From Paracoccus sediminicola (GTDB taxonomy: Bacteria; Pseudomonadota; Alphaproteobacteria; Rhodobacterales; Rhodobacteraceae), in NCBI RefSeq assembly GCF_027912835.1, contig NZ_CP115768.1:1240001-1304000 (forward strand): a stretch of 64,000 nt of DNA. Reading direction: 5' to 3'. Position 1 is the stretch's first letter, and every line of letters starts with the position of its first letter. Made by a program: the position numbers and the translations under genes. Positions 48,158-64,000 of this stretch are shown here, piece by piece. Below the pieces are notes generated by a model. It had not been told where the DNA came from. It ran no database searches and was given only the letters and a program-made list of their open reading frames with translations.

Positions 48158-49234
48158 ATGTCCGACGCGACGACCCATCTGCTGCTGCCCTACATCCTGG
48201 CGGCGCAGGCCCAGAAGCATGTCACTCACAACGAGGCGCTGCGGATCCTCGACGGGCTCATCCAGCTCTCCGTGCTCGACCGGGATCTGACCGTGCCGCC
48301 CGCAAGTCCAGCCGATGGCGACCGCTACATCGTCGGCTCGGGCGCCACTGGCGACTGGTCGGGCTGGGACCTGAACGTGGCGCTCTGGACGGACGGAGCC
48401 TGGCTGCGCCTGCCGCCCCGGACCGGCTGGCGGGCGTGGGTCGAGGACGAGGGGCTGCTGCTGGTCTACAACGGCGCGGGCTGGATCGGGACGACGCCCG
48501 CGGCGCTGCAGAACATGGCGCTGCTGGACCTCGGCACCACGGCGGACGCCTCGAACCCGTTCTCGGCCAATCTGAATGCTGCGCTCTGGACGGCGAAGAC
48601 CGTTGCCGAGGGCGGCACCGGCGATCTGTTCTACACCATGAACAAGGAGGCTGCGGGCGACGACCTCGGTCTGACCCTGCAGACCAACTTCGTGACCAAG
48701 GCGCTGGTTGGGCTCTTCGGCTCGGACCGCTTCCGCCTCGCGGTCTCGGCCGACGGCAGCACCTTCTTCGACGGGCTCAGCGTCGACAACGCCACCGGCA
48801 TCGTCGACCAGCCACGGCTCCCGCGCTTCAAGGCCTACACGAACTACGACAACTATGTCGGCGTCGGGGCCTGGACGAAGATCGGCCTGAACAACACCGA
48901 CTACAACGACCAGGGGGCCTTCGACGCCGCGAACAATCGCTTCGTGGCGCCCACGGATGGCACCTACCTCTTCGGCGCCACGCTGCTCTACAAGATGAAC
49001 GCCAGCACGTCGGCGCGGATGAGCGGCCGGCTCGTGCTGAACGGCACGATCGAGATCCGCGGCTCGCGGGGCGAGATCAGCGGGGTGCATGTCTCCGAGG
49101 CGACAGCGCTCTGGTTGCAGACCATGGTTCCGCTAACCGCAGGCGATACCATCGAGTTGCAGGGGTATTTCCGTGTCGCGGACGGCTACTTCGCCGCTGA
49201 CCAGACATCTTTTTGGGGAACGAAGGTGGGGTGA
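48158..49234 (+). CDS. DUF2793 tail fibre with C-terminal C1q-like domain
   Basis: A 358-residue protein. The N-terminal DUF2793 part (LLLPYILAAQAQKHVTHNEALR, residues 7-28; WTDGAWLRLPPRTGWRAWVEDE) attaches to the tail tip. The C-terminal 130 residues (NNRFVAPTDGTYLFGATLLYK, GDTIELQGYF) have the jelly-roll pattern of C1q/TNF-like domains seen in phage receptor-binding proteins. It follows the tail-tip gene by 10 bp and is the last structural gene. Confidence 0.9.
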   Translation: MSDATTHLLLPYILAAQAQKHVTHNEALRILDGLIQLSVLDRDLTVPPASPADGDRYIVGSGATGDWSGWDLNVALWTDGAWLRLPPRTGWRAWVEDEGLLLVYNGAGWIGTTPAALQNMALLDLGTTADASNPFSANLNAALWTAKTVAEGGTGDLFYTMNKEAAGDDLGLTLQTNFVTKALVGLFGSDRFRLAVSADGSTFFDGLSVDNATGIVDQPRLPRFKAYTNYDNYVGVGAWTKIGLNNTDYNDQGAFDAANNRFVAPTDGTYLFGATLLYKMNASTSARMSGRLVLNGTIEIRGSRGEISGVHVSEATALWLQTMVPLTAGDTIELQGYFRVADGYFAADQTSFWGTKVG

Positions 49235-49545: not shown

Positions 49546-51342
49546 TTACAGGGACTTGAAATAGAGGTGTATTTTTTCCGCCATCATCGTCCGGCGCTCT
49601 TCCAGAAAGTCATCGTAATCCGGAATTGAACCGTTCAGCACTGAGGCAGGAACACAATTGGTTTCAAGGTTGGCTCGCATCTCGTCTATATCCGCAATAC
49701 CGCCATACCGCTGCGATCCTCCGGAACATTGATCGGCTAGTTCAGAGAAATAGACGTCGGGCGACTTGTCGCCAATTGAAATATTGATCTCGCTTTGCGC
49801 AATTACGAAATTTGCGACCTGATTGTACCGAGCAGCCGTAAATCCACGCCCCTTCAGGTAGTTCTTGGGAAAAACATGGTGGACATCGCTGCGGTTCAAT
49901 AGCAGGTCTCGCACTGTTATATCCCTAGACAAGAAACCGAGATCCCCCAGCTTCGCTTGCGCCGCCTTGAAAGCCACAAAGGACGGCGTTGTGGATGCAG
50001 AGGAATTGAATTGCTGAGGCAGAAGGGCTGACCAGTAGTCATCCGATAGTTCAGATTGAATAACGGCGTTGGCATATTTTGCCAGCCCGTGCATCTCGAT
50101 TTGCCGAATGTCGTAGTCGAAAGAACTTTCAGCATTCCCTGAGTAGCGCCCGCGAAGAACAGACATGACGTACCAGCGCCGAACAAGGCGTTCAAGTTCC
50201 GCAGCATCCATCTTTTCGGCCCGGCCGCGCAGGTAGATGATGTACGCAGAATTGACCGCGTTTTTTGAACGGATCAGATTTGAAGTTACGAACCCTGCCG
50301 AGCGAAGGATCATCGTCAACCGGTCGAAATGGGTCTTGCTCATGAAGTTGAAGACTCCTTTTTTCAGACGTTCGAACGACGCCTCCGCGATCTCCTCTTC
50401 ATAGTCCCGGGTCTCGAAGTTGCGACCGGATAACAGCGCTACCAGATCCTGCAGTTTCCCGCGTCCGAACTCCGAGGTGAAGGCAACCCTCAGCATATCG
50501 GTGTAGGACGGATCGTAGAGATCGTCGTTGACGTTGCTCAGCCAACGCATCTTTTGGAAATATTCGGATTTCACGAATTCCGTATCGTTCTTCTCGATCC
50601 GCGGCATCGCTTCGGGGGAAACGGCCAGATGGCAGAAATAGTCAATCGCCTTGCGCAGCTGATTGCCACCATTTCGTTCGTCTGCAGCGATTTTCGACAT
50701 GACGAAATCCGCCTGGCTCAGCTGCGCGCCGGTAGAGTTTACCCGGATGAAGATCTCGGTCACCGTCTCGATATCCAGATGTTCGGCCAGTTCGATGACC
50801 CCGACATGGTTGTTCGTGATCTGCCATAGGCGCTGCAGGATGCCCGAAATCTCTTTGCGGTCTGCCTCGGGGTTGCGGGCAAGATAATCGTCCATCACGC
50901 CGATCAACCCGACCTCGGGCGAAAACACCTCGGCAATATCGGCAATCCATGTGGCATCCTTCTGGATCGCGGGGTTCGTCACCTCGAACTTCTGCTCAAG
51001 CGGGTTGAAGGCGATCCGGATCCTCCGCGTGCGGTAATCCTTGTCAATGACTTCCTGACCAAGCAGCGCCGCCATCAAGGCCGTTACCCGCTGCTGCCCG
51101 TCGATCAGAATCCGCTTGCCCGACGAGGTCGTTCCATCCTTCAGCCGCACCGTGGGGTTTCGCCAAGCGATCAGGTAGCCGACCGGATAGCCATTATAGA
51201 GCGAATCCAGCAGGTTCCGCACCTTTGTCGCGTCCCACACGAAAGGGCGTTGGATCTCGGGGATGGCGATCTCGCCGGATTTGACCCAGGTCAGCAGGGT
51301 TTCGATCGGATGCGGGGTGACGGAATAGCGTTGGGTGGCCAA
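49546..51342 (-). CDS. DUF262/GmrSD-like protein with C-terminal HNH-like domain
   Basis: A 598-residue protein. The N-terminal ParB-like DUF262 domain has [25 protein letters not shown] in pieces and the NTP-binding DGQQR at 81-85. The C-terminal DUF1524/HNH-like part has [11 protein letters not shown] and later [12 protein letters not shown]. This is the GmrS plus GmrD layout of type IV modification-dependent restriction enzymes, here in one chain. It is the last gene of the defence operon, nine bases after the HNH gene. It would cut modified phage DNA or serve as the effector of the operon; the latter is inferred. Confidence 0.88.
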
Positions 51343-51351
51343 GGGTCTTTC

Positions 51352-52107
51352 CTATTGTTGATCTTGCTGAAAAAGCGTCTCGCGGTGCCAGGTGAGCCGC
51401 TTGCGGTGCTCGGAGCCGAGCGGTATCGGGGCCTGCCAGCGCAGCGCCTCGCGGGCACCTTCGCTGAGGCCGGGCGAGAACATCGGCCGCCCCTCGTCGT
51501 CGAAACTGACCAGCCCCTTGTCAAAGGCTGCGTCCCACAGCGCCGACAGAAGCAGCCCGTTATGCACGTTTAGCCGCTCGGCATCGCTGTCACACAGCCT
51601 CCACGGGATGATGTGGCTGGCGCGTAGAAGAGGTGCGTCGGCGATGCCGGACAGAGGGCAGCGGCCTTGCCAGTAGTCCATTAGCGAGGCGCGAAAGATG
51701 TCCTGGCCCACCCGCCGCACCACCAGCCGCTCGGCCTCGGTGGCTTGCGGCAGGGTTTTCACCTTTTCGCGGAAGATCTCGAGCGGCGCATCGGGCAGGC
51801 TCGCGGCCAGCTGGTAGAGGCGCGGCATCACCGCATAAAGCGCGCCGAGATCGGCAAAGGCATAGCGGGCAAGGCCGGGGCCGGGCAACTCGGTTGGCGC
51901 GAGCTCGATCTCGGCGATCACGCCGGCGTGGTCCAGCGCCAGGAGCCAGCCCTCATCCCCCCGCGCCAGCCAGATCGCACCTTGCGCGGTGGTGGAGCCA
52001 TAGCGGCGCCAGCCCGCGTCTTCGCCATTGGTGCGGCGAAAGCCGTTCTGGAAGGCGAGCTTGTCGCATTCCTGGCGGGTGATGAAGGACTGGGGGGCCT
52101 CGATCAT
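51352..52107 (-). CDS. HNH endonuclease
   Basis: A 251-residue protein. The C-terminal half has the HNH_2-like fold: CPLSG, then ASHIIPWRLCDSD, LNVHNGLLLSALWDAAFDKGLVSFDD. The N-terminal 130 residues are a separate domain of unknown type. It is linked to the DUF262 gene by a 9-bp gap and to the peptidase gene by a 4-bp gap. It ends in TAG, showing that TAG is a normal stop in this genome. Confidence 0.85.
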   Translation of the reverse strand: MIEAPQSFITRQECDKLAFQNGFRRTNGEDAGWRRYGSTTAQGAIWLARGDEGWLLALDHAGVIAEIELAPTELPGPGLARYAFADLGALYAVMPRLYQLAASLPDAPLEIFREKVKTLPQATEAERLVVRRVGQDIFRASLMDYWQGRCPLSGIADAPLLRASHIIPWRLCDSDAERLNVHNGLLLSALWDAAFDKGLVSFDDEGRPMFSPGLSEGAREALRWQAPIPLGSEHRKRLTWHRETLFQQDQQ

Positions 52108-52111
52108 TGCC

Positions 52112-53266
52112 CTACGCCTTCTCGTTCCAGAGTTTTTGGGCGGAAAGACCCATCGCGGTCTCCACGGCGTTCGCGGTGCGGGTCACCGCGTAGAGGTTCA
52201 GATCCTCGAAGGCGCCCTTGTAGTTCGACAGGTAGCTCTCGCTCCTTGGCTCTAGCCCGTTGCGCATCGCCACCAGGTAGGCTGCCATCTCGGCTTCCAC
52301 TTCCATTAGCTCGTGAGGCGTGTCGCGCCGATCCGGTACGCGGCGTCCGTTGTCGGCTCCGAGGTGGCCGAGGTACAGGTGCGCAAGCTCATGGGCGACG
52401 GTCACGAAACGCGTCGGGGCGGCATGGTTCCGGTTGTAGGCCAGCTGGTAGACGTTCTTGCCCTTGTCGTTCTTCGCGCGGGCGAGCAGCCGGATCCAAC
52501 CCGCCTGGCCGTCTCCTGCGTCGAGCTGGACGAGGTCGATCTTCTCCTTGCTGATAGCCCGCATAAACTCGGCGAAGCGGTTGTCGCTTAAATTGCCGAA
52601 GGTCGGGAAGGAGAACGCATCGACCGGCAGGTCCTTGCCCTCGGTATCCTGCACGTCGAACACGAAGTCGACTGGCCCCTTCATGCGCAACACCAGGAGC
52701 GGCCGTGCGCCCTTTTTCGGCACGCGGCCGAACCGTTGCCACCAGTCATGCGCTGTCGCGGCATGCGTCAGGCCCGGTTTCTGAATGTGCAGCAGCATCG
52801 CGTTGAAAGGGGCGAATTCGCGCAGGCGAATGGTGAAGGTGAAAAGTTCGTGGATCGCTTCGCTGCTGTCATAGAGCTTTGTCGCCGCGATCAACTGGTC
52901 GATCAGGGCGCGCTCGGCCTCAGTTTTCGTGCCGGCTCCGTCGAACAGGTCGTTCTGCGCTTCGGGCGACGCAGGCGGTGTCAGCAGTGCATCGAGATCG
53001 AACTTCGGCGGGTAATCGACGAAGGTCTCATCTTCGACCCCCGGAGTAAAACCGCTGATCTCGCCTCGCCGGGCCTGCTCGACGAACAGGTCGAAATAAG
53101 GGCGGAAGCGTCGCTCCTGCTCGGGCTTCATGCCACCCTCGCGCATCAGGACGAGGATGGACTCGGCGTCCGGCGTCCAGTCGAAGCGCGAGTCGAAGAT
53201 CGATTGGACCGCGCCGCGGATAAAATCGGCCACTCGACCGTAGACGACGGGATCGATGGCCGGCAT
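52112..53266 (-). CDS. ImmA/IrrE family metallopeptidase with N-terminal ArdC-like region
   Basis: A 384-residue protein. The zinc peptidase motif HELAH is at 292-296 (VAHELAHLYLGHLG). The part before it (AFNAMLLHIQKPG, HDWWQRFGRVPKKGARPLLVL) resembles ArdC-type ssDNA-binding N-terminal domains. ImmA-type peptidases cleave repressors or toxins, so this may act as a sensor or switch for the operon. It starts 3 bp after the methylase stop. Confidence 0.85.
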   Translation of the reverse strand: MPAIDPVVYGRVADFIRGAVQSIFDSRFDWTPDAESILVLMREGGMKPEQERRFRPYFDLFVEQARRGEISGFTPGVEDETFVDYPPKFDLDALLTPPASPEAQNDLFDGAGTKTEAERALIDQLIAATKLYDSSEAIHELFTFTIRLREFAPFNAMLLHIQKPGLTHAATAHDWWQRFGRVPKKGARPLLVLRMKGPVDFVFDVQDTEGKDLPVDAFSFPTFGNLSDNRFAEFMRAISKEKIDLVQLDAGDGQAGWIRLLARAKNDKGKNVYQLAYNRNHAAPTRFVTVAHELAHLYLGHLGADNGRRVPDRRDTPHELMEVEAEMAAYLVAMRNGLEPRSESYLSNYKGAFEDLNLYAVTRTANAVETAMGLSAQKLWNEKA

Positions 53267-53269
53267 CGG

Positions 53270-56200
53270 TCACATCCCCATCGCCGTGAATTCACCGTTG
53301 GCGTCAAGGCGGTCCCACGCGGCGAGGACGAGGCGGCGGGTGCGGTATTCGCCGTGTTGGCGGATTTCATTCTCCTTGAGGACGCGGAAGGTTTCTGAGG
53401 GGTAGTCGGGACCCTTCACGTCGGCGGGGTCGAGGATGTAGCGCAGCTCATCGCGGGTCAGGCCGTAGGCGCGCGCAAAGAAGGCGTCGAGATCGGCGCG
53501 CAGGTGGGCGCGGCGGTTCTCGTCCCAGGCGAAGGGCGGGCCGTCGTAGCCCAGATCGCGGGCGAAGGGGGCGAGGCTGTGCGAGGCGTAGGTGAGTTCC
53601 AGCACCTTCGGGGTGATGAAGGCGAGGCGGGGTTCGGTGTAGAAGGCTGGGGGAAGAAACGGCAACTGCGAAAAGTTGTGCTTTCGAATGTCCGTGCCGC
53701 CAATCTTGAACCCACAAGTATAGTCAAGGCAGATCGAATTAAGGTTGGCTAGAACTGCCGAGGTAATTTCCTTTTTGCCTTGGACGCTCAATACCGACGC
53801 CGTGTCGTCTGTTGCAACCATGGGCAGGATCGCCGCAATCATCGTTCTAGAGTCAGTTGCACGCGCAATCCGCCTTATCGAGAGATGATACTTTGGATTC
53901 AAAAACTTCTTGGCTATTCTCTGCTCATAGTATTTCCGATCAACATACTTGTCTGATGCGTCCACATTTCCGCTCTGAATGTCCTCATTCGAGTGCATGC
54001 CGAGGATTGGGTCTATGGAGTATTGATTGAAAAAGGTCCCACGGAATACTGCAATCGTGTCAGCGGATGCCGGGGTATTCTGAAACTGTTCCAAGTCGTC
54101 TGAATTTGACGAAGTAAACACATTCTGATTTAGGATAAGCCAATCCTCGGTGCGCGGAATCTTCGCGACCAAGCCAAACATCTTCGCTGCTAGCTCGGCG
54201 TCTGCACGAGCCCGAAAAATTGGGGCGTTCTTGGTTATTGGGTTGATGGCGCTGATCTGCTCAGGCGAGAGAGTAAAGTTTCTTTCGATATCATTAATTT
54301 GACTTGGGTCAGAGAGGAAGAACGAGAAGGCTGCCTCATCTTCCTCAGCGCCAATAGTGAGCAGGCAAAATTTGTAGCTGCGGTGAACTGACGTGAAGAT
54401 GCCGTTTTTGTTCTCGAAATCGACAAGCTTTGAAAGGCGACGATCCTCGACAAGCGAAGCAAAGAAGGGAGCAGTAGTTGCATCCGTTGCTATGCCTGTA
54501 GGAACGATCACTCCAGCTCGGCGCCTTGCGAGCCCTGCGAACAGCTCAGCGAACAAGGAATAGGTATTAATCTTTCCTCGCGCGGAGAGTTCGAATCTAC
54601 CACTCTCCCGAGCAAATTCATTTGACGCGTCAAAGTTGCGTTTGTCCGCGATGTATTCGGCGTACGCGATGGAATTGGTCGCCTGAAGTTCAGAAATCGC
54701 GTGTTTTCGTGCAGCACCCGAAAGTGCACCAATCTCCGGTATGCGTGTGGAGAAATACTCCTCTTCTGAAAGTTGCACCACGTCCCACGGCGGATTGCCC
54801 AGCACCACGTCGAAGCCGCCGCGCTGCATCAGATCGGGGAACTCAAGCGGCCAATGCAGGGCGCGGGCGTTGCGTGCGGCCTTGGGCGCTTCGACCATCG
54901 CCTGGCGCATCTTCCCCTGATTGAGGGCCATCCACAGTTCCTCGGTCGTCGGCACGGTGCGGGCCGAAGCCCCCGCTGGTGCGCCGCCAACCTTGGGCAG
55001 CAGGAAGGCCGCCACATAGAGGTCCGCCGCCGCCTTGGCGCGGACAAAGGTCTGCCCCTTGCGCAGTTCCTTGAACCGCCTGGCCTTGGCGCCGATCTGC
55101 TCGACCGTATCCTCGGGCAGGTCACGGAAGCCCGAGAAATCCAACGCCAGCGGCTTCATCGCCGGCATGGCTGCCTGACCAGTGCCGAAGTCGAACCCGC
55201 CTTGCCCCGCCTTCACATCGCGATTGGCCTTGAGGTAGTATTTCGCGGTTTCCTTGTCGTCGCCGGTCAGCGGCTTGTAGGCGGCATCGGGAATGCCGTC
55301 CTGCAGCACCTGCAGGTCGAACACCCCCAGCAGCGCATCGCCGCAGCGGATCTGCGCATCGAAGAAGCCGAGGGGAAGGCCGGGGTCCACGGTCTCGATC
55401 CAGAGCGCGACCTTGGTCAGCTCCACCGCCATCGGGTTGCGGTCCACCCCATGGATGCAGCAGCGCGCGACATCGCGCAGCGCGTGGCGGAAATCGGCGA
55501 GCGAGGGCGTGCCCTCGGCCCGGATGCGCGCGAGCCGCGTGGCGATGCGGCGGGCGGCGGCCAGCAGGAAGTGGCCCGAGCCGCAGGCAGGGTCGATGAC
55601 CGAAAGCTTCAGCAGCGCCTTGGCGGGATCGTCCGCTTCAGCCTCGGTCTTGTCGAGCACGGGGTCGAGCGCGGTGTTGAGCAGCGCCTGAACGAGGCTG
55701 TCGGGAGTGTAGTATGAGCCGGTGGTCTTGCGCTGGTTTCCCTTTTGCTCGGCCGCCTCGGAGGCGAAGAGCAGTGTTTTGCCGTCGTCGCCCAGCTGCG
55801 GCTGGAGTTCGAGGAGGGATTCGTAGACGGAGCCCAGTTCTTCGGTCTCCATCGCGCGCCAGTTGACGGGGACCATGCCGGTTTTGTCCGACAGCCAGGA
55901 GAGGCGATAGAGCGCCTCCATGAAGGCCTTGTTGCGCAGGCGGGCGGTTTCCAGGTGGGGCAGACGGTCGTCGGCAAAGAGACCGCCGAGCGCCGGGAGG
56001 GCGAGTGCCTCCTGCCCGTGGGCGAGCGCGCGGAAGACGATCTTGATGCCTTCGTAGCGGTCGTGGTGCTTGTCCCACGTGGCGGCGCGGTAGCACTGCT
56101 TGCGCAGGGCGGCGAGGCTGTAGCCCTCGGCGTAGAGCGCGCGGGCCTCGGCTTTCGACTTCGTCGGGTGGAGGAGGTTCCGGTCCTCGGCGACCATCAG

Positions 56201-57061
56201 GAAGATCAGCCGGTAGACGAGGCGGAGGAGCTCGTTGAACCAGGTGGTGAGGTTCACCTCGCCGGATTTCAGTTTGGCCGCGAGTTCGGGGTTGGCTTCG
56301 AGGAAGCCCGAGCCCAGCACCTTGAGCGCGATCTGGACCTGGTCAGCCAGGCGGTCGCGCGCGGCCTCGCCCTCGCGCGAGCCAGCCTCGCGCCATCGCT
56401 CGAGCGGGCAGTCGGTGGCCGGGGTGTCAGCGGCGCCGAAGCGTGACCGGTGGATGATGAGCCAGAGCGCGGCAAACGACGCGATGTCTTCGGTCGAGAA
56501 GATCTGGGCGAGGTCGGCTTCGATGTAGGCGGGGCGCGTCAGGGACGCGTTGTCCCGCATGAGACGAAGATGGGTGCCGTTGGTGACGATCCCCCAGAGC
56601 GCTTCCTCGGTGTCGTTGAGGTAGTCCTGAATCGCGAAGGCCGGCGAGCGGGAACGGTCGATGGACAGGGTCGGGCTGCGGCGGTCCAACGTCTCGCTCG
56701 GCGGCACGACGACCAGCGGAACCCTGCCGCTGGCGATCATGGCGAGCGGCGCATCGGCCGGTGTTAGGTCGTCAAAACCGAAGGTCTCCTTGAAGAAGCC
56801 GGCAACGAAACGGCGGGTGGCGTCTTGAGATGGCGTGTCGAGCTTCGCGAAGGCATCGAAGTGGGATTGGCCGACACGGAACGCCGTCGAGATTTCCTCT
56901 CGGATCGTGAGGCCCTTGCGGACAGCATAGTCCTCCCGCGACTGTTCCGGTGCGTCCCGCTGGTCGATCTTGGCGATCATCGCCGGCGCGATCAGGTTGC
57001 CCTCGAGGCTGAGCGAGGGCCATGCCGACATGTCGGAGATCGGTTTGCGCGCCATTGTCAC
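53270..57061 (-). CDS. Eco57I/DrmMI-like adenine-specific DNA methylase
   Basis: A 1263-residue protein. The methyltransferase core has GSYYTPDSLV (motif X, 448-457), DPACGSGHF (motif I, from 490) and NPPW (motif IV, 756-759), the gamma-class N6-adenine order. The N-terminal 400 residues may bind DNA or partners; the C-terminal 500 include a target-recognition-type region, AT-richer in its DNA (about 53700-54700), suggesting exchange of the recognition domain. GTG start overlaps the helicase stop (GTGA). Size and neighbours match the class 1 DISARM methylase; a type IIG enzyme is the alternative, but no nuclease motif was seen. Confidence 0.88.
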   Translation of the reverse strand: MTMARKPISDMSAWPSLSLEGNLIAPAMIAKIDQRDAPEQSREDYAVRKGLTIREEISTAFRVGQSHFDAFAKLDTPSQDATRRFVAGFFKETFGFDDLTPADAPLAMIASGRVPLVVVPPSETLDRRSPTLSIDRSRSPAFAIQDYLNDTEEALWGIVTNGTHLRLMRDNASLTRPAYIEADLAQIFSTEDIASFAALWLIIHRSRFGAADTPATDCPLERWREAGSREGEAARDRLADQVQIALKVLGSGFLEANPELAAKLKSGEVNLTTWFNELLRLVYRLIFLMVAEDRNLLHPTKSKAEARALYAEGYSLAALRKQCYRAATWDKHHDRYEGIKIVFRALAHGQEALALPALGGLFADDRLPHLETARLRNKAFMEALYRLSWLSDKTGMVPVNWRAMETEELGSVYESLLELQPQLGDDGKTLLFASEAAEQKGNQRKTTGSYYTPDSLVQALLNTALDPVLDKTEAEADDPAKALLKLSVIDPACGSGHFLLAAARRIATRLARIRAEGTPSLADFRHALRDVARCCIHGVDRNPMAVELTKVALWIETVDPGLPLGFFDAQIRCGDALLGVFDLQVLQDGIPDAAYKPLTGDDKETAKYYLKANRDVKAGQGGFDFGTGQAAMPAMKPLALDFSGFRDLPEDTVEQIGAKARRFKELRKGQTFVRAKAAADLYVAAFLLPKVGGAPAGASARTVPTTEELWMALNQGKMRQAMVEAPKAARNARALHWPLEFPDLMQRGGFDVVLGNPPWDVVQLSEEEYFSTRIPEIGALSGAARKHAISELQATNSIAYAEYIADKRNFDASNEFARESGRFELSARGKINTYSLFAELFAGLARRRAGVIVPTGIATDATTAPFFASLVEDRRLSKLVDFENKNGIFTSVHRSYKFCLLTIGAEEDEAAFSFFLSDPSQINDIERNFTLSPEQISAINPITKNAPIFRARADAELAAKMFGLVAKIPRTEDWLILNQNVFTSSNSDDLEQFQNTPASADTIAVFRGTFFNQYSIDPILGMHSNEDIQSGNVDASDKYVDRKYYEQRIAKKFLNPKYHLSIRRIARATDSRTMIAAILPMVATDDTASVLSVQGKKEITSAVLANLNSICLDYTCGFKIGGTDIRKHNFSQLPFLPPAFYTEPRLAFITPKVLELTYASHSLAPFARDLGYDGPPFAWDENRRAHLRADLDAFFARAYGLTRDELRYILDPADVKGPDYPSETFRVLKENEIRQHGEYRTRRLVLAAWDRLDANGEFTAMGM

Positions 57062-59829
57062 ACCTTGCCCGGCATGAGGCCGAACAAGCCAATCACGTCG
57101 GGCGGAAGGACCGCTTCGACGCTGACGCGGGAGATGGAGCCGGCTGCGGCACGCAGGCGAGCATGATCTTCGACGAGTTCCGCTGCCCGCTGATTGACGA
57201 AGTCCGCCAAAGGTCCAGCGAGCAGGTCCGGCAGGTCCGCCTTAGCAGCATTGATCATCCGATCTCGTGCGATCGTCGCGAGATCGGCAGTGGCCGGCGT
57301 GCTGAGCATATTTCGGACGTCTTCGCCGGCCGCCACGACGGCTTTGCCCTGGAGGGCAACCAGCGCTGCTTCTTCGGCCAGAAGAAGCCGCTCCTTTCTG
57401 GCGTGGATCGTGAGCTTGTACCGGACACGTAGCAGAGCAACTCGCGTCATCGCCGAGACCGCTGTTGTCGGCCACGCACCGACACGGCCGATGCCGAGGT
57501 CCGGAAGCGCCTCCTGATCCAGTGACGCCTCGACAAGGCTCTCGGCGAGCGAGGCCGTCAGCGGATGCGTTCTCGTCAAGAGCGACGTGCCAGAGGGAGC
57601 AGGCTCCGCGGTTGCGAGCCTCACGGATTTCTCGAGACCGCGCTGTTCAAGCTTCTCCTTCAGGGTCTGCTGTAGCGCGTGAACGTGAGCGATGTAGATG
57701 TTCCGTTTCTTCTCGAGCGGGACACCGAACCGCGACATCGCGCGCTCGACGAAAAGCTTCGTATCATCCGGCGAGCCGAGCAGGCTTCTGACCTTGTCCC
57801 ACTCCGGCGCAACCTCATCGGGCTTCATCGCGTTCTGGGCAAACCTGGCACGCGATTTCTTCTCGTTCTCGCTGGCATCGCGCCAACGCGCTTCCATGAC
57901 CTTCGTGCCATCCTCGAGACGAAGGTCGAGAGTCAGCTGCTTGTGCCCACCACGGCGGAGCATCATTGCGGACATCAGGGCGTCTGTGACCGGCCCGCGT
58001 TCGTCGGGCAGCGGAACCGTCACCCCGGTTGCCTTCCTGATTTCCTCGGCTTTCCGCAGGATCACATCGAGGACGGCACCATCGATGGCGCTGTCCGGCG
58101 AGAACATCATGATCGAGCGAACCAGCTCGGCCGGCTGGCCGAAGCGGTCCACCCGTCCTTCACGCTGCTGGTGTCGGGTCGGATTCCACGAGAGATCGTA
58201 ATGTACGACCGTGTCGAAAAGCTGCTGCAGGTTGATGCCTTCCGAGAGGCAGTCGGTCGCCACCAGGATTCTCTGCGCACCTTCTTCCGCACCTTCCAGC
58301 GCCATCTCGGCAACACGATCGCGGCGTTCGTCCGGGGTCAGCTCACCAGTTACTGACTCGATGATCAGCTTTGGGAAAGCTCTCCGCAGGCCTGACTTCA
58401 CGTGTTCGGCGCTGGCCAAGTACCGGCAGAAGACGACCGGGTTGGCACCGCTCTTGATCAGCGGCTTGAGCGCACCGACGAGGGCATCGAGCTTCGGATC
58501 TTTCGCTTCAACGAGATCGCCAGCCTGATCAATGAGCGCACGGAGTGCGGTATCATCCGAGAATGCCGTGCTCGGTTCGATGTCCACTGCATCTTCGTCG
58601 TCGCCGTCTTCGTCATAGATCTGCGGTTCGAGACGGTCTGCTTCGTTGGAAGCACGATTTCTCAGCGCGCTCAACGCCGCGGCGGGCGAGGAACCGACGC
58701 AGCGCATGAGAGCTAGGGTGCCCCAGAACGCGAGGCGCTGATCCCTCTTTTGCTCTCCCGCTTTCGAGACCACCTCGAGGCAATAGTCCAGAACGGCTTC
58801 CTGGAACGCCAAGTGCTCGGGCGAGAGCCGGTAGGCATGCTCTGTGGTTTCGTGTTTCGGGAATGATCGGTCCTCGTGCCAATCGCCCTCGACGAGGTCC
58901 ACACGACGCCGCTGGACAAAGTGCCTTGCAAGGCGCTCTCGGTATCTCGCGCTTTCGAAGTCCAGCGTGGCGAAATCCTGGTCAATCAGTGAGAGCAGTC
59001 GCGCAAATGCTTCCTCGTCGCCCGAATGCGGTGTGGCCGTGAGCATGATGAACCGGCGCTCCGCGTCCTTCGCGAGCCCTTGTAGCAACTCGAAACGCTG
59101 CTGCTTTCCTTTGTGGGTGCCGACACAAGCGTGGGCTTCATCAACGATCACGAAGTCGGGACAGGCTCGGGCGAATCCCTCACGGCGCTTCTCGGCCTTG
59201 ATGTAATCAAGGCTGACAACCGTGTAGGGATAAGCGTCAAAGAGGGTCTGCGCGAGCGGCAGATTTCTCTCGAGGCGTGCCGCGGTACCGGAAGTCACCG
59301 CGACAGCGTCGATTCCGAACCGATCCTTGAGCTCGATGATCCATTGATCCACAAGGTGGGGCGGGCAGAGAACCGAGAATGCATCGACTTCGCCGCGGTC
59401 CATGAACTCCCGCAGGATCAAGCCCGCTTCGATGGTCTTGCCGATACCGACATCGTCAGCGATCAGCAGCCGAGGCACTTGGAGCCTGAGTGCCATAAGC
59501 AGTGGCACAAGCTGATATGTGCGAGGTTCGAATGCGAGCTGCGCGGCAGATCGGAACGGGCCGGCGCCGCGGCGAAGTGTGAGCCGCAGTGCGTCCGCCA
59601 AGAGCGCAGCCTTGGCTTGGACAGTAGTGCGCGCGCCCTCGGGGAGGTCGAACCGCGCCGCTTCGACCGAAGCGATTTCCAGTGTAGGATCCAGGACAAC
59701 AATGTCGTTTTCGTTTCCCGACAGCGGCCGAAGCGCAAGAACCCCCGCGCGTGGCGCAGGGAGGGCCACCCATTCTCGGCCGCGAGCCCGAACCAAATCG
59801 CCAGGTGAGAAACTCAGCACGATATTCAC
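57058..59829 (-). CDS. SNF2-family helicase, DISARM DrmD-like
   Basis: A 923-residue SF2 ATPase. FEPRTYQLVPLLMALRL (Q-like motif) is followed by DDVGIGKT (Walker A, 125-132), DEAH (230-233), TATPHSGDEEAF (motif III) and, in the second lobe, ATDCLSEGINLQ and HQQREGRVDRFGQ (motif VI). The C-terminal 250 residues are helical. The overall layout matches what I know as DrmD of class 1 DISARM. Both ends overlap neighbours by the 4-base GTGA, so the three large genes are translationally coupled. Confidence 0.88.
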   Translation of the reverse strand: MNIVLSFSPGDLVRARGREWVALPAPRAGVLALRPLSGNENDIVVLDPTLEIASVEAARFDLPEGARTTVQAKAALLADALRLTLRRGAGPFRSAAQLAFEPRTYQLVPLLMALRLQVPRLLIADDVGIGKTIEAGLILREFMDRGEVDAFSVLCPPHLVDQWIIELKDRFGIDAVAVTSGTAARLERNLPLAQTLFDAYPYTVVSLDYIKAEKRREGFARACPDFVIVDEAHACVGTHKGKQQRFELLQGLAKDAERRFIMLTATPHSGDEEAFARLLSLIDQDFATLDFESARYRERLARHFVQRRRVDLVEGDWHEDRSFPKHETTEHAYRLSPEHLAFQEAVLDYCLEVVSKAGEQKRDQRLAFWGTLALMRCVGSSPAAALSALRNRASNEADRLEPQIYDEDGDDEDAVDIEPSTAFSDDTALRALIDQAGDLVEAKDPKLDALVGALKPLIKSGANPVVFCRYLASAEHVKSGLRRAFPKLIIESVTGELTPDERRDRVAEMALEGAEEGAQRILVATDCLSEGINLQQLFDTVVHYDLSWNPTRHQQREGRVDRFGQPAELVRSIMMFSPDSAIDGAVLDVILRKAEEIRKATGVTVPLPDERGPVTDALMSAMMLRRGGHKQLTLDLRLEDGTKVMEARWRDASENEKKSRARFAQNAMKPDEVAPEWDKVRSLLGSPDDTKLFVERAMSRFGVPLEKKRNIYIAHVHALQQTLKEKLEQRGLEKSVRLATAEPAPSGTSLLTRTHPLTASLAESLVEASLDQEALPDLGIGRVGAWPTTAVSAMTRVALLRVRYKLTIHARKERLLLAEEAALVALQGKAVVAAGEDVRNMLSTPATADLATIARDRMINAAKADLPDLLAGPLADFVNQRAAELVEDHARLRAAAGSISRVSVEAVLPPDVIGLFGLMPGKV

Positions 59830-62800
59830 CCTTTCAATAGATCAATTAGCTGCTCAGGGACGCCGGCCTCGGTTGATGATGGCAAAGCGACGAGTTCCCA
59901 GCCTTTGTTGGTGGCTTCATTGGCCATGTCTGCGGAAACCGCCTCGCTCGTTGCGGCGACAAAGTGCCCGCGCCATACGAATTCGGCTTCCGCGCCGGCG
60001 AAGCTGAGGCCGATGGTGTCGACCTGCGGGAGACCAGCAGCCTCAAATGCCTTCAGCCACGGCGACGACGCGCCGTCTGGCGCGGCCCGCCGCTCAAGGA
60101 CCGTTCGGCCGCGCGCAAGGTCAACCAACAGCTGGGTAACCTCCTCGCTGCCGCGGTCGATCTGCTCATGGTCCGGCTGGTTGAAGTACGACAACAGGCA
60201 GCGGTAGCACCCTCTGACGCAGGCATCGTCGGCCTTCTCGGTCAGCAGGCTAGCGTCTCCGCTTGCGACCGCCGCGTCGATGTTCTCGAAGTGCATGAGC
60301 CCGAGTGTTGTCCGCGCGACCTCGCTGATCGCTTCTGGCTTATCCATCAGGCGCGTAAGAACACCGGCCCCTCCCTCCGTGGCTTCGTAGGCAAGGATGG
60401 CGCGGCGGTTGTCGCGAGCTGGAAGCGGCTCGCTTAGGATCTCGCCTTCTTCAAGCTGGTAGACGACCTCGATCCCCCGCAAGAGCGCATGCTGAACGGT
60501 GGTGATCGTGCTTGGGTCGAAGTCTTCCGGTTTCTTGAAGCGGAACAGAAGCGCGTTCTTGCGGTCCCTGACGATCGGCACGATCCGCACTGGCTTGACT
60601 ACATCGGGCGGAGCGTCGGTCTCCGCATCCTCGTCCTCAGATTTTGCCCAGTAGCCTGTGCGGGGATCGATATTGAAGCCGAAGACCGTCTGGTCCTTTC
60701 GGCGCTTCAGACCCTTGTTCAGACGACGAATCTCGGCGCTGTTGGCGTACTGCAGTGCGAGCAGAGAAGTCTCGCCGCATTTGAATTCCGCGTTCGTGAC
60801 CTGTAATTGATCGTCCTTCTTCGGCCACGAAAATACGGTCTGGATATCGAAGCCCTGCCGGACGCGCTCTTCATCGTTCGCGGTGATGCGCTCAGTAGGT
60901 GCGGCTTCCACATTGTCGATGCGGAGCGTGCGCTTGATGGGCACCTCTCCGGCCATATGTGTGTCGCAGCCATGGCAGCGCTCTACCTCTCCTTCGTGGC
61001 AGGCTCCGCAGTTGGCGCAAATGTAGATGTCCTTGGTCGCGAGCTCCGATCCGTCGCCCTCGCGAACCTCGGGAGGTAGCTTTGCCTTCATTACCCGGTA
61101 GGCGCGACCTTCGTGGTAGATCAGGCTTCGCGGTCCAAATTCCGATATCGCAAGAAAGCGCGCGCGAGAGAGGAACGAGCCGGTCTTTCCCTCGCCCGGC
61201 ACGAAGGCGTAGAGCGGCAGGCGTGGGAAATTATAGCCGGGCAGGAAGCCCTCCGTCGCGAGGTAGCGATACGAGTAGAAGTCTGATCCGTTCGATGCCT
61301 TTCCTTGCTCGAGGATCGCAATCTGGTCGCTGGCCTGCATCTGGGCCGCCTTGATCTTGCGGCGGTCGCCGGCCGAGAGACCTGTGATTTCCGAACGGGC
61401 GTTGGCTTCGGCCAGCTGCGTGCGCGCTGAATTGTAGAGCTCACGCCAGCGATCGAACGCGCGGTCGAATTCCTTCGGAGCGTTCATTGCTACATGAAGT
61501 ACAAACTCTTCCGGGTCCTCCATCCAAACAGGTAGCGCCCCTTGGTCGGCAGCCAGGATCTGTTCGAGTACTCTATGCATCGGAGCGCGCGCGCGGGAGA
61601 CAAGATCGGACTTGGAAATGGTGGTAAGGATCTCTTCCTTGAGCGGATATCGGTCACCACCAAGGTCGAGGATATCCGGGATATCCGGTTTAAGAGCGAG
61701 ACGGCTCTCAGCAAGCCAGACCGCATGCAGGTGCGAACGCACCAGTTCCTCGTTCGTGATGTCCAGCGCAGGCGGCCGCACGACACCCGCCACCATGTCA
61801 TTGCGACGCTCGAAGAAGTACTGGTCGTGTGGAGAGCCCGATGCGCAGTACGTCACCACAACCGCTGCCTGGCCAGACCGGCCCGAGCGGCCAGCACGCT
61901 GTGCGTAGTTGGCGGGCGTCGGGGGGACGTTCCTGAGATAAACTGCATTGAGCGCCGAGATGTCGACCCCAAGCTCCATGGTCGGCGAGCAGAACAGCGC
62001 TGGAAGGAACTGGTCGGATTCACCGGTGGTCTTGATTTCGGTCCGATACTCGGAGGTGCTGAGGTTTTCGAGGTCGTCGTCTTCGTACCTGAACCGCCAC
62101 TCACGCCATTCACGCTGCCTTTGGGAAACCTGCGCGGTATGCTCGCGCCCCTCCAACCCCCAATAGGCGCTGTGACCCGATGCCAGATCGTCCGCAATCG
62201 ATGCGTACAGATCGTGGAAGTATCTGTTTCCCCGCTGGCTCTCGTCGGAAAGCGCGGGCCCGGGTACAAGGCGGACGGCGGAGGGCGTCAGCCGCCAACC
62301 TACGAGATCAGCGTCGAGCTCAACCGGGACGATCAAGCCCTCATCTGCGAGCAGCTCAAGTAGGCGCGAGAAGAACTCAATGTAGTGATCCCGCCCGAGC
62401 TTCGCGCCCAGCACGCTCTTCTTGTTGATTAGCCGCGCAATGCGCGAGTTATGGCCGGCGCGAAGAAGGGTCTGTTCCTCACGAAGACCCACGGCGTTCT
62501 TTCCGGGTGCACGCAGAAGCAGCGACGACCGTCCGCGCGGTTTCTCCTTGGCATCTATCGCCCACGGAGCGCGCAACAGCGAACGTGATTTCTGCGCGAC
62601 ACCGTCCAGAACAGTCAGATCCAGGGCTTCCGTACTGACGGCCAGCCCTTCGAGCATTGCGCCCAGCACGCTCGCAAGCAGCAGGGCTCTCTGCTCTTCT
62701 GCTTGATCGCCGAGCTCGGGCAGGACTGTCATCAGCCTTTCCCGGTCTGATGCCATGTCGGCGACGCCGACGAACTCAACATCGAGAAGCTTCAGAACGG

Positions 62801-64000
62801 AGAGGCTGGGGTTGGTGTAGCGCCAACCCCTGCGGAGGTCAGTCCACACTCGGTGAGCCAGAACCTTTGCGAGTGCGCGCTGGGCATCTTCCCGAATGAC
62901 AGCGCCAGCCGATGGGTCGAGCATCCAATGAGCACGCGCGTCCTTGTTTGCAGACGTGAAGCCGAGCGCCTTGACGACGCTGAGACCGAACTCATCCTCG
63001 GTCAGCCCATCGGGGCCTGCTGCCATTATCGCCCGCAGAATGGCCCCACGCAGAAGGCTCACGAACAGAAAATCGTTGAAGTGGCCGGACTGAAGCGCCG
63101 CGTCTTGTCGATTGTCCGTAAACCCTAGCAGCTTGCGCTTTGTCTTTGGAACACCGCTCGTCGGCTTGTTCATCCACTCGAGAGCACTGGACACGAGAAG
63201 GGTCGTCGCGGAGCTCCTCCCTTCGCCAGAGAGGCCCGCCAGCTTACTGCGCTCACGCATCCCCTGGTTAGGCTCGTCCTTGCAGCAGAGGCAGAATGCA
63301 AACTTTCCAGGGATGAACCAGAACTCTCTCCCGCCGGCGCCATGGCGACCGTCTGGCGTCACGACATAGGAGATGGGTACGCGCTTCTTGCGATAGGACC
63401 GCAGCCGCTCGATGCCGTTGCGCTCTTCGAGCCAGCTCTCCGGGTAGCCGTTCAAGTCGCCATCGAAGGCGAAATCAGGATCATTGTCTGGAGCCGGGCA
63501 AAGATATCCCGCCACATCATCGTCGTCTTCGGTTTCCAGCGGCGTATCGTCGATATTGCGGGGAAGAAACCTGATGTGCCCGTCATCCTCGCTCTCGGTG
63601 ACGATGTGGTATTCGTGTCCGCAGTTCCTGCAGAAGCGTGTTGGGTAAAGCCGGTTACCCCGAGCATTGGGATCTTCGAGCTGGCCCTCGAACAGAACGG
63701 TGCGCGGCTTGTCCGTAAGCGTTGTGAAGATCTCACCAGCGCCGGAGATGAATCTGTGCAATTTGAATGCCAGGAACGCTCCGTCCCCCGTCCCACCGCG
63801 CTGATCTGCGGGAAGGCTTACCAGCGTCAGGAAGCCTTCTAGCTGTGTCCGACAACGCTCCGCGTCGACCCCACTGTCGTCGGCCAATCGTCTGACGGCG
63901 TCCTCGAAGGGGATGGGCTTCTTTCGTTTCAGCTCCAAGCCGTCATCGAGTCCGAGCGCAAGCTCCGCCCATACCGCGAGCGGGTGTTTTCTGAGCTGCT
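59826..64000 (-). CDS. Very large helicase with C-terminal DUF1998 domain, 5' end beyond the window
   Basis: At least 1391 residues; the frame is open to the window edge, so a TTG at 63938 is probably internal. Visible parts in order: CRNCGHEYH with a later CLCC (zinc-like), KRKLLGFTDNRQDAALQSGH (helicase motif IV region), LFCSPTMELGVDISALNAVYLRNV (motif V), QRAGRSGRSGQ (motif VI), the zinc-ribbon CANCGACHEGEVERCHGC, and the DUF1998 end with CVRGCYRCLLSYFNQPDHEQID (in parts). The DEAD-box lobe must lie upstream. This joins in one chain what DISARM splits as DrmA and DrmB, and also resembles Druantia DruE. It is the first visible gene of the operon. Confidence 0.88.
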   Translation of the reverse strand, partial: QLRKHPLAVWAELALGLDDGLELKRKKPIPFEDAVRRLADDSGVDAERCRTQLEGFLTLVSLPADQRGGTGDGAFLAFKLHRFISGAGEIFTTLTDKPRTVLFEGQLEDPNARGNRLYPTRFCRNCGHEYHIVTESEDDGHIRFLPRNIDDTPLETEDDDDVAGYLCPAPDNDPDFAFDGDLNGYPESWLEERNGIERLRSYRKKRVPISYVVTPDGRHGAGGREFWFIPGKFAFCLCCKDEPNQGMRERSKLAGLSGEGRSSATTLLVSSALEWMNKPTSGVPKTKRKLLGFTDNRQDAALQSGHFNDFLFVSLLRGAILRAIMAAGPDGLTEDEFGLSVVKALGFTSANKDARAHWMLDPSAGAVIREDAQRALAKVLAHRVWTDLRRGWRYTNPSLSVLKLLDVEFVGVADMASDRERLMTVLPELGDQAEEQRALLLASVLGAMLEGLAVSTEALDLTVLDGVAQKSRSLLRAPWAIDAKEKPRGRSSLLLRAPGKNAVGLREEQTLLRAGHNSRIARLINKKSVLGAKLGRDHYIEFFSRLLELLADEGLIVPVELDADLVGWRLTPSAVRLVPGPALSDESQRGNRYFHDLYASIADDLASGHSAYWGLEGREHTAQVSQRQREWREWRFRYEDDDLENLSTSEYRTEIKTTGESDQFLPALFCSPTMELGVDISALNAVYLRNVPPTPANYAQRAGRSGRSGQAAVVVTYCASGSPHDQYFFERRNDMVAGVVRPPALDITNEELVRSHLHAVWLAESRLALKPDIPDILDLGGDRYPLKEEILTTISKSDLVSRARAPMHRVLEQILAADQGALPVWMEDPEEFVLHVAMNAPKEFDRAFDRWRELYNSARTQLAEANARSEITGLSAGDRRKIKAAQMQASDQIAILEQGKASNGSDFYSYRYLATEGFLPGYNFPRLPLYAFVPGEGKTGSFLSRARFLAISEFGPRSLIYHEGRAYRVMKAKLPPEVREGDGSELATKDIYICANCGACHEGEVERCHGCDTHMAGEVPIKRTLRIDNVEAAPTERITANDEERVRQGFDIQTVFSWPKKDDQLQVTNAEFKCGETSLLALQYANSAEIRRLNKGLKRRKDQTVFGFNIDPRTGYWAKSEDEDAETDAPPDVVKPVRIVPIVRDRKNALLFRFKKPEDFDPSTITTVQHALLRGIEVVYQLEEGEILSEPLPARDNRRAILAYEATEGGAGVLTRLMDKPEAISEVARTTLGLMHFENIDAAVASGDASLLTEKADDACVRGCYRCLLSYFNQPDHEQIDRGSEEVTQLLVDLARGRTVLERRAAPDGASSPWLKAFEAAGLPQVDTIGLSFAGAEAEFVWRGHFVAATSEAVSADMANEATNKGWELVALPSSTEAGVPEQLIDLLKG

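Follow-up and report, generated by a model that had tools for sequence, protein, structure and literature searches.

Which kind of defence system is encoded by the operon at the end of a 64,000-nucleotide stretch of Paracoccus sediminicola DNA (contig NZ_CP115768.1, positions 1,240,001 to 1,304,000; this whole stretch is called the window in the following), and which of its proteins would cut phage DNA? On the minus strand of the window, six genes follow one another in close coupling between 49546 and a point beyond 64000. They encode a YprA-family helicase, a SNF2 helicase, an adenine methylase, an ImmA/IrrE-type metallopeptidase, an HNH endonuclease and a GmrSD-like DUF262 protein. Judging from its genes, this operon probably protects against viruses as a system of the ARMADA kind. 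Its YprA carries a Vsr-like domain from which the D...DGxxH residues are missing. Among the related loci with sufficient sequence, a separate HNH gene was found in 77 of the 81 without these residues, but in 0 of the 17 with them.

An earlier reading of the window from its letters alone (the sequence-only reading) had described six coupled genes on one strand with two GTGA-type 4-bp overlaps and gaps of 3-9 bp. The coordinates confirm this: the overlaps lie at 57058-57061 and 59826-59829, the other junctions leave gaps of 9, 4 and 3 bp, and GTG is the start codon of both the methylase and the SNF2 gene. Pfam and PADLOC agree with the families proposed for the six genes. The view of a defence operon with a methylase, an effector tail, a leading helicase gene and no PLD-type DrmC holds, too. 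In the contig beyond the window the YprA gene is complete at 1726 aa and the operon comprises seven genes in total.

Probable assignment to ARMADA Type I

According to the main text of a 2025 preprint (Bell et al., PMC12458937), ARMADA systems consist of three proteins: a YprA helicase belonging to this branch, a BrxHII-like helicase and a PglX-like methylase. In Type I, the genes generally come in this order. In the window, the YprA gene likewise heads the helicase-methylase row. The YprA-family helicase (59826..63998 on the minus strand within the window, start at the extrapolated position 65006) shows DEAD, Helicase_C and MZB/DUF1998 domains and is near DruE. It is followed by a SNF2/RapA-like (BrxHII/DrmD-like) helicase of 923 aa (57058..59829, minus strand; SNF2 and Helicase_C matches) and by a PglX/DrmMI-like adenine DNA methyltransferase of 1263 aa (53270..57061, minus strand; Eco57I/N6_Mtase match, DPACGSGH and NPPW motifs). 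A Vsr-like C-terminal domain of YprA may be a further common feature; the preprint's main text describes it as a predicted active Vsr-type nuclease, whereas the domain in the window is devoid of the catalytic residues. In a tree of selected loci, built without the published reference sequences, the window joins the Vsr-keeping loci at 86.4/93.

A system combining such a core with an HNH protein was reported before. MexAMORF1192P (Blow et al. 2016, PMC4752239) is presented in the passages devoted to it as a four-protein Type IIG-like restriction-modification system from a methylome study, in which a pair of translocases, one of them containing DUF1998, is combined with a protein with methylase and target recognition domain and with an HNH endonuclease. 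The window operon has all of these parts. In the legend of that paper the translocases are 'flanking' the methylase, a wording that may be loose, whereas both precede it in the window. Since ARMADA (2025) and MexAMORF1192P (2016) have been published, neither the core alone nor the core plus HNH is a new gene set. The main text of PMC12458937 mentions no Lamassu, SMC, ImmA/IrrE or DUF262 partner, HNH and WYL appearing in its reference list alone, and the passages of PMC4752239 on MexAMORF1192P say nothing of IrrE, of an exchanged slot, of lost Vsr residues or of a link to ARMADA. Three features described below, i.e. the loss of Vsr residues together with the presence of HNH, the coupling of the slot gene to the length of the methylase, and the mosaic around the motor genes, were not found in print, with figures, supplements and subscription papers lying outside the search. 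Our analysis ties the observation of four-protein HNH restriction from 2016 to a class of defence systems that received its name in 2025.

Loss of the Vsr residues and the separate HNH protein

The Vsr-like domain comprises residues 1640-1726 of the window YprA (59829..60089, minus strand) and is predicted to be inactive from its sequence. We scored the motif in the last 135 residues of YprA, accepting DL at the DG position as well; YprA proteins of less than 1290 aa and those whose genes lack their 3' end (e.g. L119, L127 and L128) were not counted. In 117 loci with a readable C terminus, the residues were missing from 94 and kept in 23. Of the 94, 77 carry an HNH gene (a count that includes the window, L002), 13 are contig ends and four have no HNH. 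Among the 23 Vsr-keeping loci, 17 offer at least 10.5 kb of downstream sequence and no HNH and six are contig ends; HNH matches were absent anywhere in these 23 loci. Two loci scored as lost are borderline: the outgroup L129 sits among the 13 contig ends yet retains a CDG...H motif, and in L144 the motif partly remains. The Pfam family DUF559 was matched at or over its cut-off by all six Vsr-keeping C termini given to the comparison (of 23), versus none of the three Vsr-lost ones given (of 94). With Foldseek, the fold of the YprA C terminus matched nothing at E<=0.001.

The clade of Vsr-lost loci is supported at 100/100 in the tree, the tips of which are selected loci. Outside this clade, the Hydrogenimonas locus L136 groups with the Vsr keepers (98.2/92) yet lacks the residues, and an HNH_2 gene, identified on the other part of its plasmid (L150), ends its gene row. 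Behind two Vsr-keeping loci from Nocardioides and Deinococcus (L139 and L140) lie genes whose annotation is McrC or McrB family.

The HNH_2 endonuclease of the window has 251 aa (51352..52107, minus strand). Its catalytic half (51355..51744, minus strand) matches the structure of VcaM4I (6YEX) with an E value of 6.7e-16, and its residues H165, D192 and D196 correspond to H224, D250 and D254 of that enzyme. VcaM4I variants H224A, D250A and D254A are drastically impaired, as stated in the text passages of PMC7897488 on these variants. In the 39 HNH proteins aligned (of 64 found), the three residues are invariant. As they match the catalytic ones of VcaM4I and do not vary, the HNH protein should be an active nuclease. 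VcaM4I is an EVE-HNH endonuclease, and the likeness is confined to the HNH catalytic domain with its three residues: the window protein differs in its N-terminal domain, for which Pfam shows no match to EVE. Residues 1-100 were predicted as model blocks at a pLDDT of 83-96, the HNH half being poorly modelled, and the fold of the N-terminal domain had no PDB match at E<=0.001.

We consider it rather probable that the operon encodes an HNH-bearing form of ARMADA Type I and that translocases drive it as a restriction-modification system. Its methylase would mark one sequence in the host DNA, as suggested by its motifs, its recognition region and the report of 2016. The two helicases, going by their families, would translocate along unmarked DNA to scan or pump it, and the separate HNH protein would cut instead of the Vsr-like domain of YprA, a step to which the conservation of HNH and the Vsr loss point. 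The Vsr-like domain itself may be retained as a structural or docking part. More speculatively, IrrE might gate or license the system in the role held by an LmuB-like protein in most relatives, the WYL protein could be a BrxR-like regulator, and DUF262, by its family, a type IV-like side arm against modified phage DNA. Thereby, the way in which phage DNA is destroyed by ARMADA and related helicase systems becomes testable: in this branch, the nuclease fused to the helicase looks dead, and an HNH protein with catalytic residues is encoded beside it. A single HNH point mutation could ask whether cutting is needed.

Conservation of the operon

Conservation was counted in 80 loci, namely those of the 80 best-scoring proteins among 213 relatives of the SNF2 protein. 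YprA is present in 77 and the methylase in 79 of these. Two of the three loci without YprA begin inside the SNF2 gene, and the third, L049, has 1.2 kb of upstream sequence without YprA. HNH was found in 64 loci; 15 of the 16 misses are contigs that end too early, and the last one, L044, has a truncated methylase. As core and HNH recur across the 80 loci, their association is not due to chance. For plasmid regions, 20 of 68 matching records (60 listed) were selected for spread, i.e. non-randomly. Near-duplicates were not removed before counting: L117 and L033 seem to be one contig, as do L118 and L082, and L108-L111 are close relatives. In the viral_contigs and phages collections no relatives of the SNF2 protein were found. 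MexAMORF1192P is perhaps the Methylorubrum extorquens AM1 locus L143, which is our unverified guess from the name.

The ImmA/IrrE gene was detected in only eight of the 80 loci (the copy in L036 is cut by the contig end), and a full-length relative of the window DUF262 protein in three. The exact order WYL-YprA-SNF2-methylase-IrrE-HNH-DUF262 recurs in a single locus, L054 of Pararhizobium antarcticum, with identities to the window of 73% for YprA, 66% for IrrE and 30% for DUF262. HNH is a near-constant fourth gene of the clade, and IrrE and DUF262 are accessories. The sequence-only reading had taken the last three genes as one tail, but the three do not form a single block. Of the arrangement that it had thought would be new, the core and the core with HNH have been described already. 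The two findings it had named as speaking against novelty came out differently: the core has been named as a system before, but homologous loci do not simply lack the tail.

These counts also bear on another explanation, by which methylase and helicases protect in a BREX-like manner without DNA cleavage, HNH, IrrE and DUF262 being independent passengers of a defence island. PglX- and BrxHII-like parts are indeed present, IrrE and DUF262 vary among the loci, and in the ARMADA II tests given in the main text of PMC12458937 protection was non-abortive, no nuclease step having been demonstrated. Against this, HNH is missing almost exclusively at contig ends, sits in the same tight gene row and accompanies the loss of the Vsr residues. 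We regard cleavage-free protection as unlikely and continue with the restriction-modification system driven by translocases.

Methylase and specificity

Compared to its relatives, the window methylase shows 67-96% identity in residues 1-600, 36-54% in 761-960, 13-28% in 961-1120 and again 65-83% in 1161-1240. On sequence grounds, this profile is the pattern of a target recognition domain, of which the hypervariable residues 961-1120 (53702..54181, minus strand) are taken as the core. PglX is the specificity factor of BREX according to the text passages of PMC11341690 on this protein, and by analogy we infer the methylase to be the putative specificity factor here.

In 72 pairs of loci with YprA proteins at least 95% identical, the median identity was 0.97 for methylase residues 1-600, 0.30 for residues 961-1130 and 0.81 for HNH. 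In 65 of these pairs identity was below 0.5 in methylase residues 961-1130, in 25 it was below 0.75 in HNH, and 35 pairs differ in the class of the slot gene described below. The window and L013, for example, share 97% identity in YprA and 94% in methylase residues 1-600, 14% in the recognition region and 67% in HNH. L011 is another locus that combines near-identical motors with a recognition region of its own. Recognition region and HNH diverge where the helicases are 95-97% identical. A common target site of HNH and methylase was considered and rejected: beyond YprA, HNH and recognition region are weakly correlated (r 0.15, p 0.002), and five of 12 such tests gave p <0.05, none exceeding r 0.15.

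The exchangeable slot between methylase and HNH

In many loci an LmuB-like gene of about 650 aa lies between methylase and HNH (PADLOC LmuB with 68.9 bits and 1.3e-19; Pfam DUF2326 with 4.5e-6, slightly under the cut-off). Its presence follows the length of the methylase. In 63 loci with complete methylase, it was found in all 36 with at least 1443 aa and in none of the 27 with at most 1335 aa; the methylase of L013 was counted with 1319 aa, its version of 1458 aa being an overcalled start. In the examples compared, the extra length sits at the C terminus, and the window methylase is the short form without this extension. Next to short methylases, the slot contains IrrE, a CBS domain gene, a weakly UDG-like gene, unknown genes or nothing at all. 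This coupling is a handle on the roles of the SMC-like and ImmA/IrrE partners.

When presence and absence of LmuB are mapped onto a YprA tree with 58 loci, no fewer than 13 changes are required, compared to a mean of 18.6 and a minimum of 13 with shuffled labels, so the slot changes often. LmuB-like genes also follow the methylase in the distant Vsr-keeping loci L109-L112, L124 and L149; the SMC partner is therefore probably older than the alternatives in the slot.

In the window, the slot is occupied by the ImmA/IrrE-type metallopeptidase of 384 aa (52112..53266, minus strand; Peptidase_M78 match, HExxH intact). In seven aligned ImmA/IrrE proteins the C-terminal 275 residues are highly conserved and the N-terminal 110 are very different, which suggests that the N-terminal part is a swappable recognition part. 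An ArdC-like identity of this part was dropped since it had no Pfam or PDB match.

Lamassu consists of an SMC sensor plus a nuclease. HNH and the slot genes might accordingly be a Lamassu-like second line, triggered when the core fails, with a peptidase replacing the SMC protein in the window. The commonest slot gene is LmuB-like with HNH directly after it, and IrrE was seen solely alongside short methylases, both of which would fit. HNH nevertheless persists in loci with nothing in the slot (e.g. L037, L055 and L060), and no LmuA/LmuC-type partner was identified. We give this second line a small chance of being right and prefer an HNH protein that cuts for the translocating core itself.

A wider reading of these data is tentative and somewhat less likely than not. 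Cutting may have been handed over from the motor-fused nuclease to a separate HNH protein at least twice, at the base of the large, mostly alphaproteobacterial clade and in Hydrogenimonas. This would have freed the downstream operon end as an exchange port, where the recognition half of the methylase, the control gene (for an SMC ATPase, an ImmA/IrrE peptidase or another protein) and HNH are re-dealt among near-identical motors and the SMC protein docks on the methylase extension, which is missing where the peptidase is present.

Comparison with DISARM, Druantia and Dpd

The sequence-only reading had assigned the first three genes to DrmA/B, DrmD and DrmMI of DISARM; gene set and order correspond to ARMADA Type I instead. 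A rearranged class 1-like DISARM with a new nuclease/peptidase tail is very improbable and was rejected: the SNF2 protein and the methylase are homologous to DrmD and DrmMI (250 and 248 bits to PADLOC models), but YprA matches the Druantia DruE models best (269 bits, versus 51 bits for DrmA), helicase and DUF1998, which are the separate proteins DrmA and DrmB in DISARM, are fused in one gene of 1726 aa that comes first, the SNF2 protein reaches 275 bits against the NCBIfam DrmD cut-off of 610, and no PLD match, and hence no DrmC, was found among the seven genes.

Druantia combines DruE with DruH or with DruM/F/G partners. In the window operon DruE matches were confined to YprA, and no other Dru model is among the matches listed (for the SNF2 protein and the methylase, the best 25 of 40 and of 43).

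The PADLOC model PDLC02853 'DpdE' covers residues 4-920 of the SNF2 protein with 654 bits. The label looks misleading, and an automatic annotation would say Dpd. Weaker matches of DpdJ/DpdF helicase models to YprA reach at most 90 bits, and no Dpd 7-deazaguanine modification-gene model is among the matches listed for the seven operon genes, the only ones scanned.

Genomic setting and neighbouring genes

The operon ends with the GmrSD-like DUF262 gene of 598 aa (49546..51342, minus strand; GmrSD_N match, DGQQR and C-terminal HHxFP motifs). A phage tail-type gene (48158..49234, plus strand), the tail end of a prophage and outside the system, converges on it. At the other end, a WYL regulator gene of 295 aa (extrapolated 65003-65890, outside the window) precedes YprA and overlaps its start by 4 bp.

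In two genomes of the same genus, G006 and G010, a BREX type 3 system follows a tail gene 91% identical to that of the window. PADLOC identifies BrxF, BrxC, PglXI, BrxHII, PglZ and BrxA in G010, and the arrangement in G006 is identical apart from one extra gene. The seven genes of the operon described here include no BrxC, PglZ, BrxA or BrxF. The WYL genes of these systems are 78% (G010) and 82% (G006, cut by the end of the stretch) identical to the window WYL. As both systems share the tail site and a similar WYL gene, this would be a slot for defence systems at the end of a prophage, and the WYL gene probably belongs to the site and not to a particular system. WYL/BrxR proteins co-localise with many defence systems, as described in text passages of PMC9122601. 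Tail-protein matches adjoin nine of the 80 loci plus L121, always converging among the matches listed. According to PHROGs, the genes upstream of the window tail gene include those of a tape measure and of a tail protein, and the tail gene itself has tail-fibre families among its weaker matches. A gene-transfer-agent context was dropped, the genomes of the genus having up to seven tail-gene matches each, partial ones included.

Of the 66 loci having at least 3 kb of upstream sequence, 20 have a WYL gene (at least 85% query coverage) ahead of YprA. In seven of the 66, a DUF262 gene of 645 aa, distinct from that of the window, lies upstream of YprA. These seven proteins (L026:2890-4827 from Paracoccus denitrificans DSM 413 and those of six further loci) are 98-100% identical and encoded between WYL and YprA, and their YprA proteins are near-identical, too. 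In several loci without WYL, an AAA_14/DUF4143 protein (PADLOC candidate PDC-S01; L021:3473-4699, a cluster of 12 members) is encoded just upstream of YprA.

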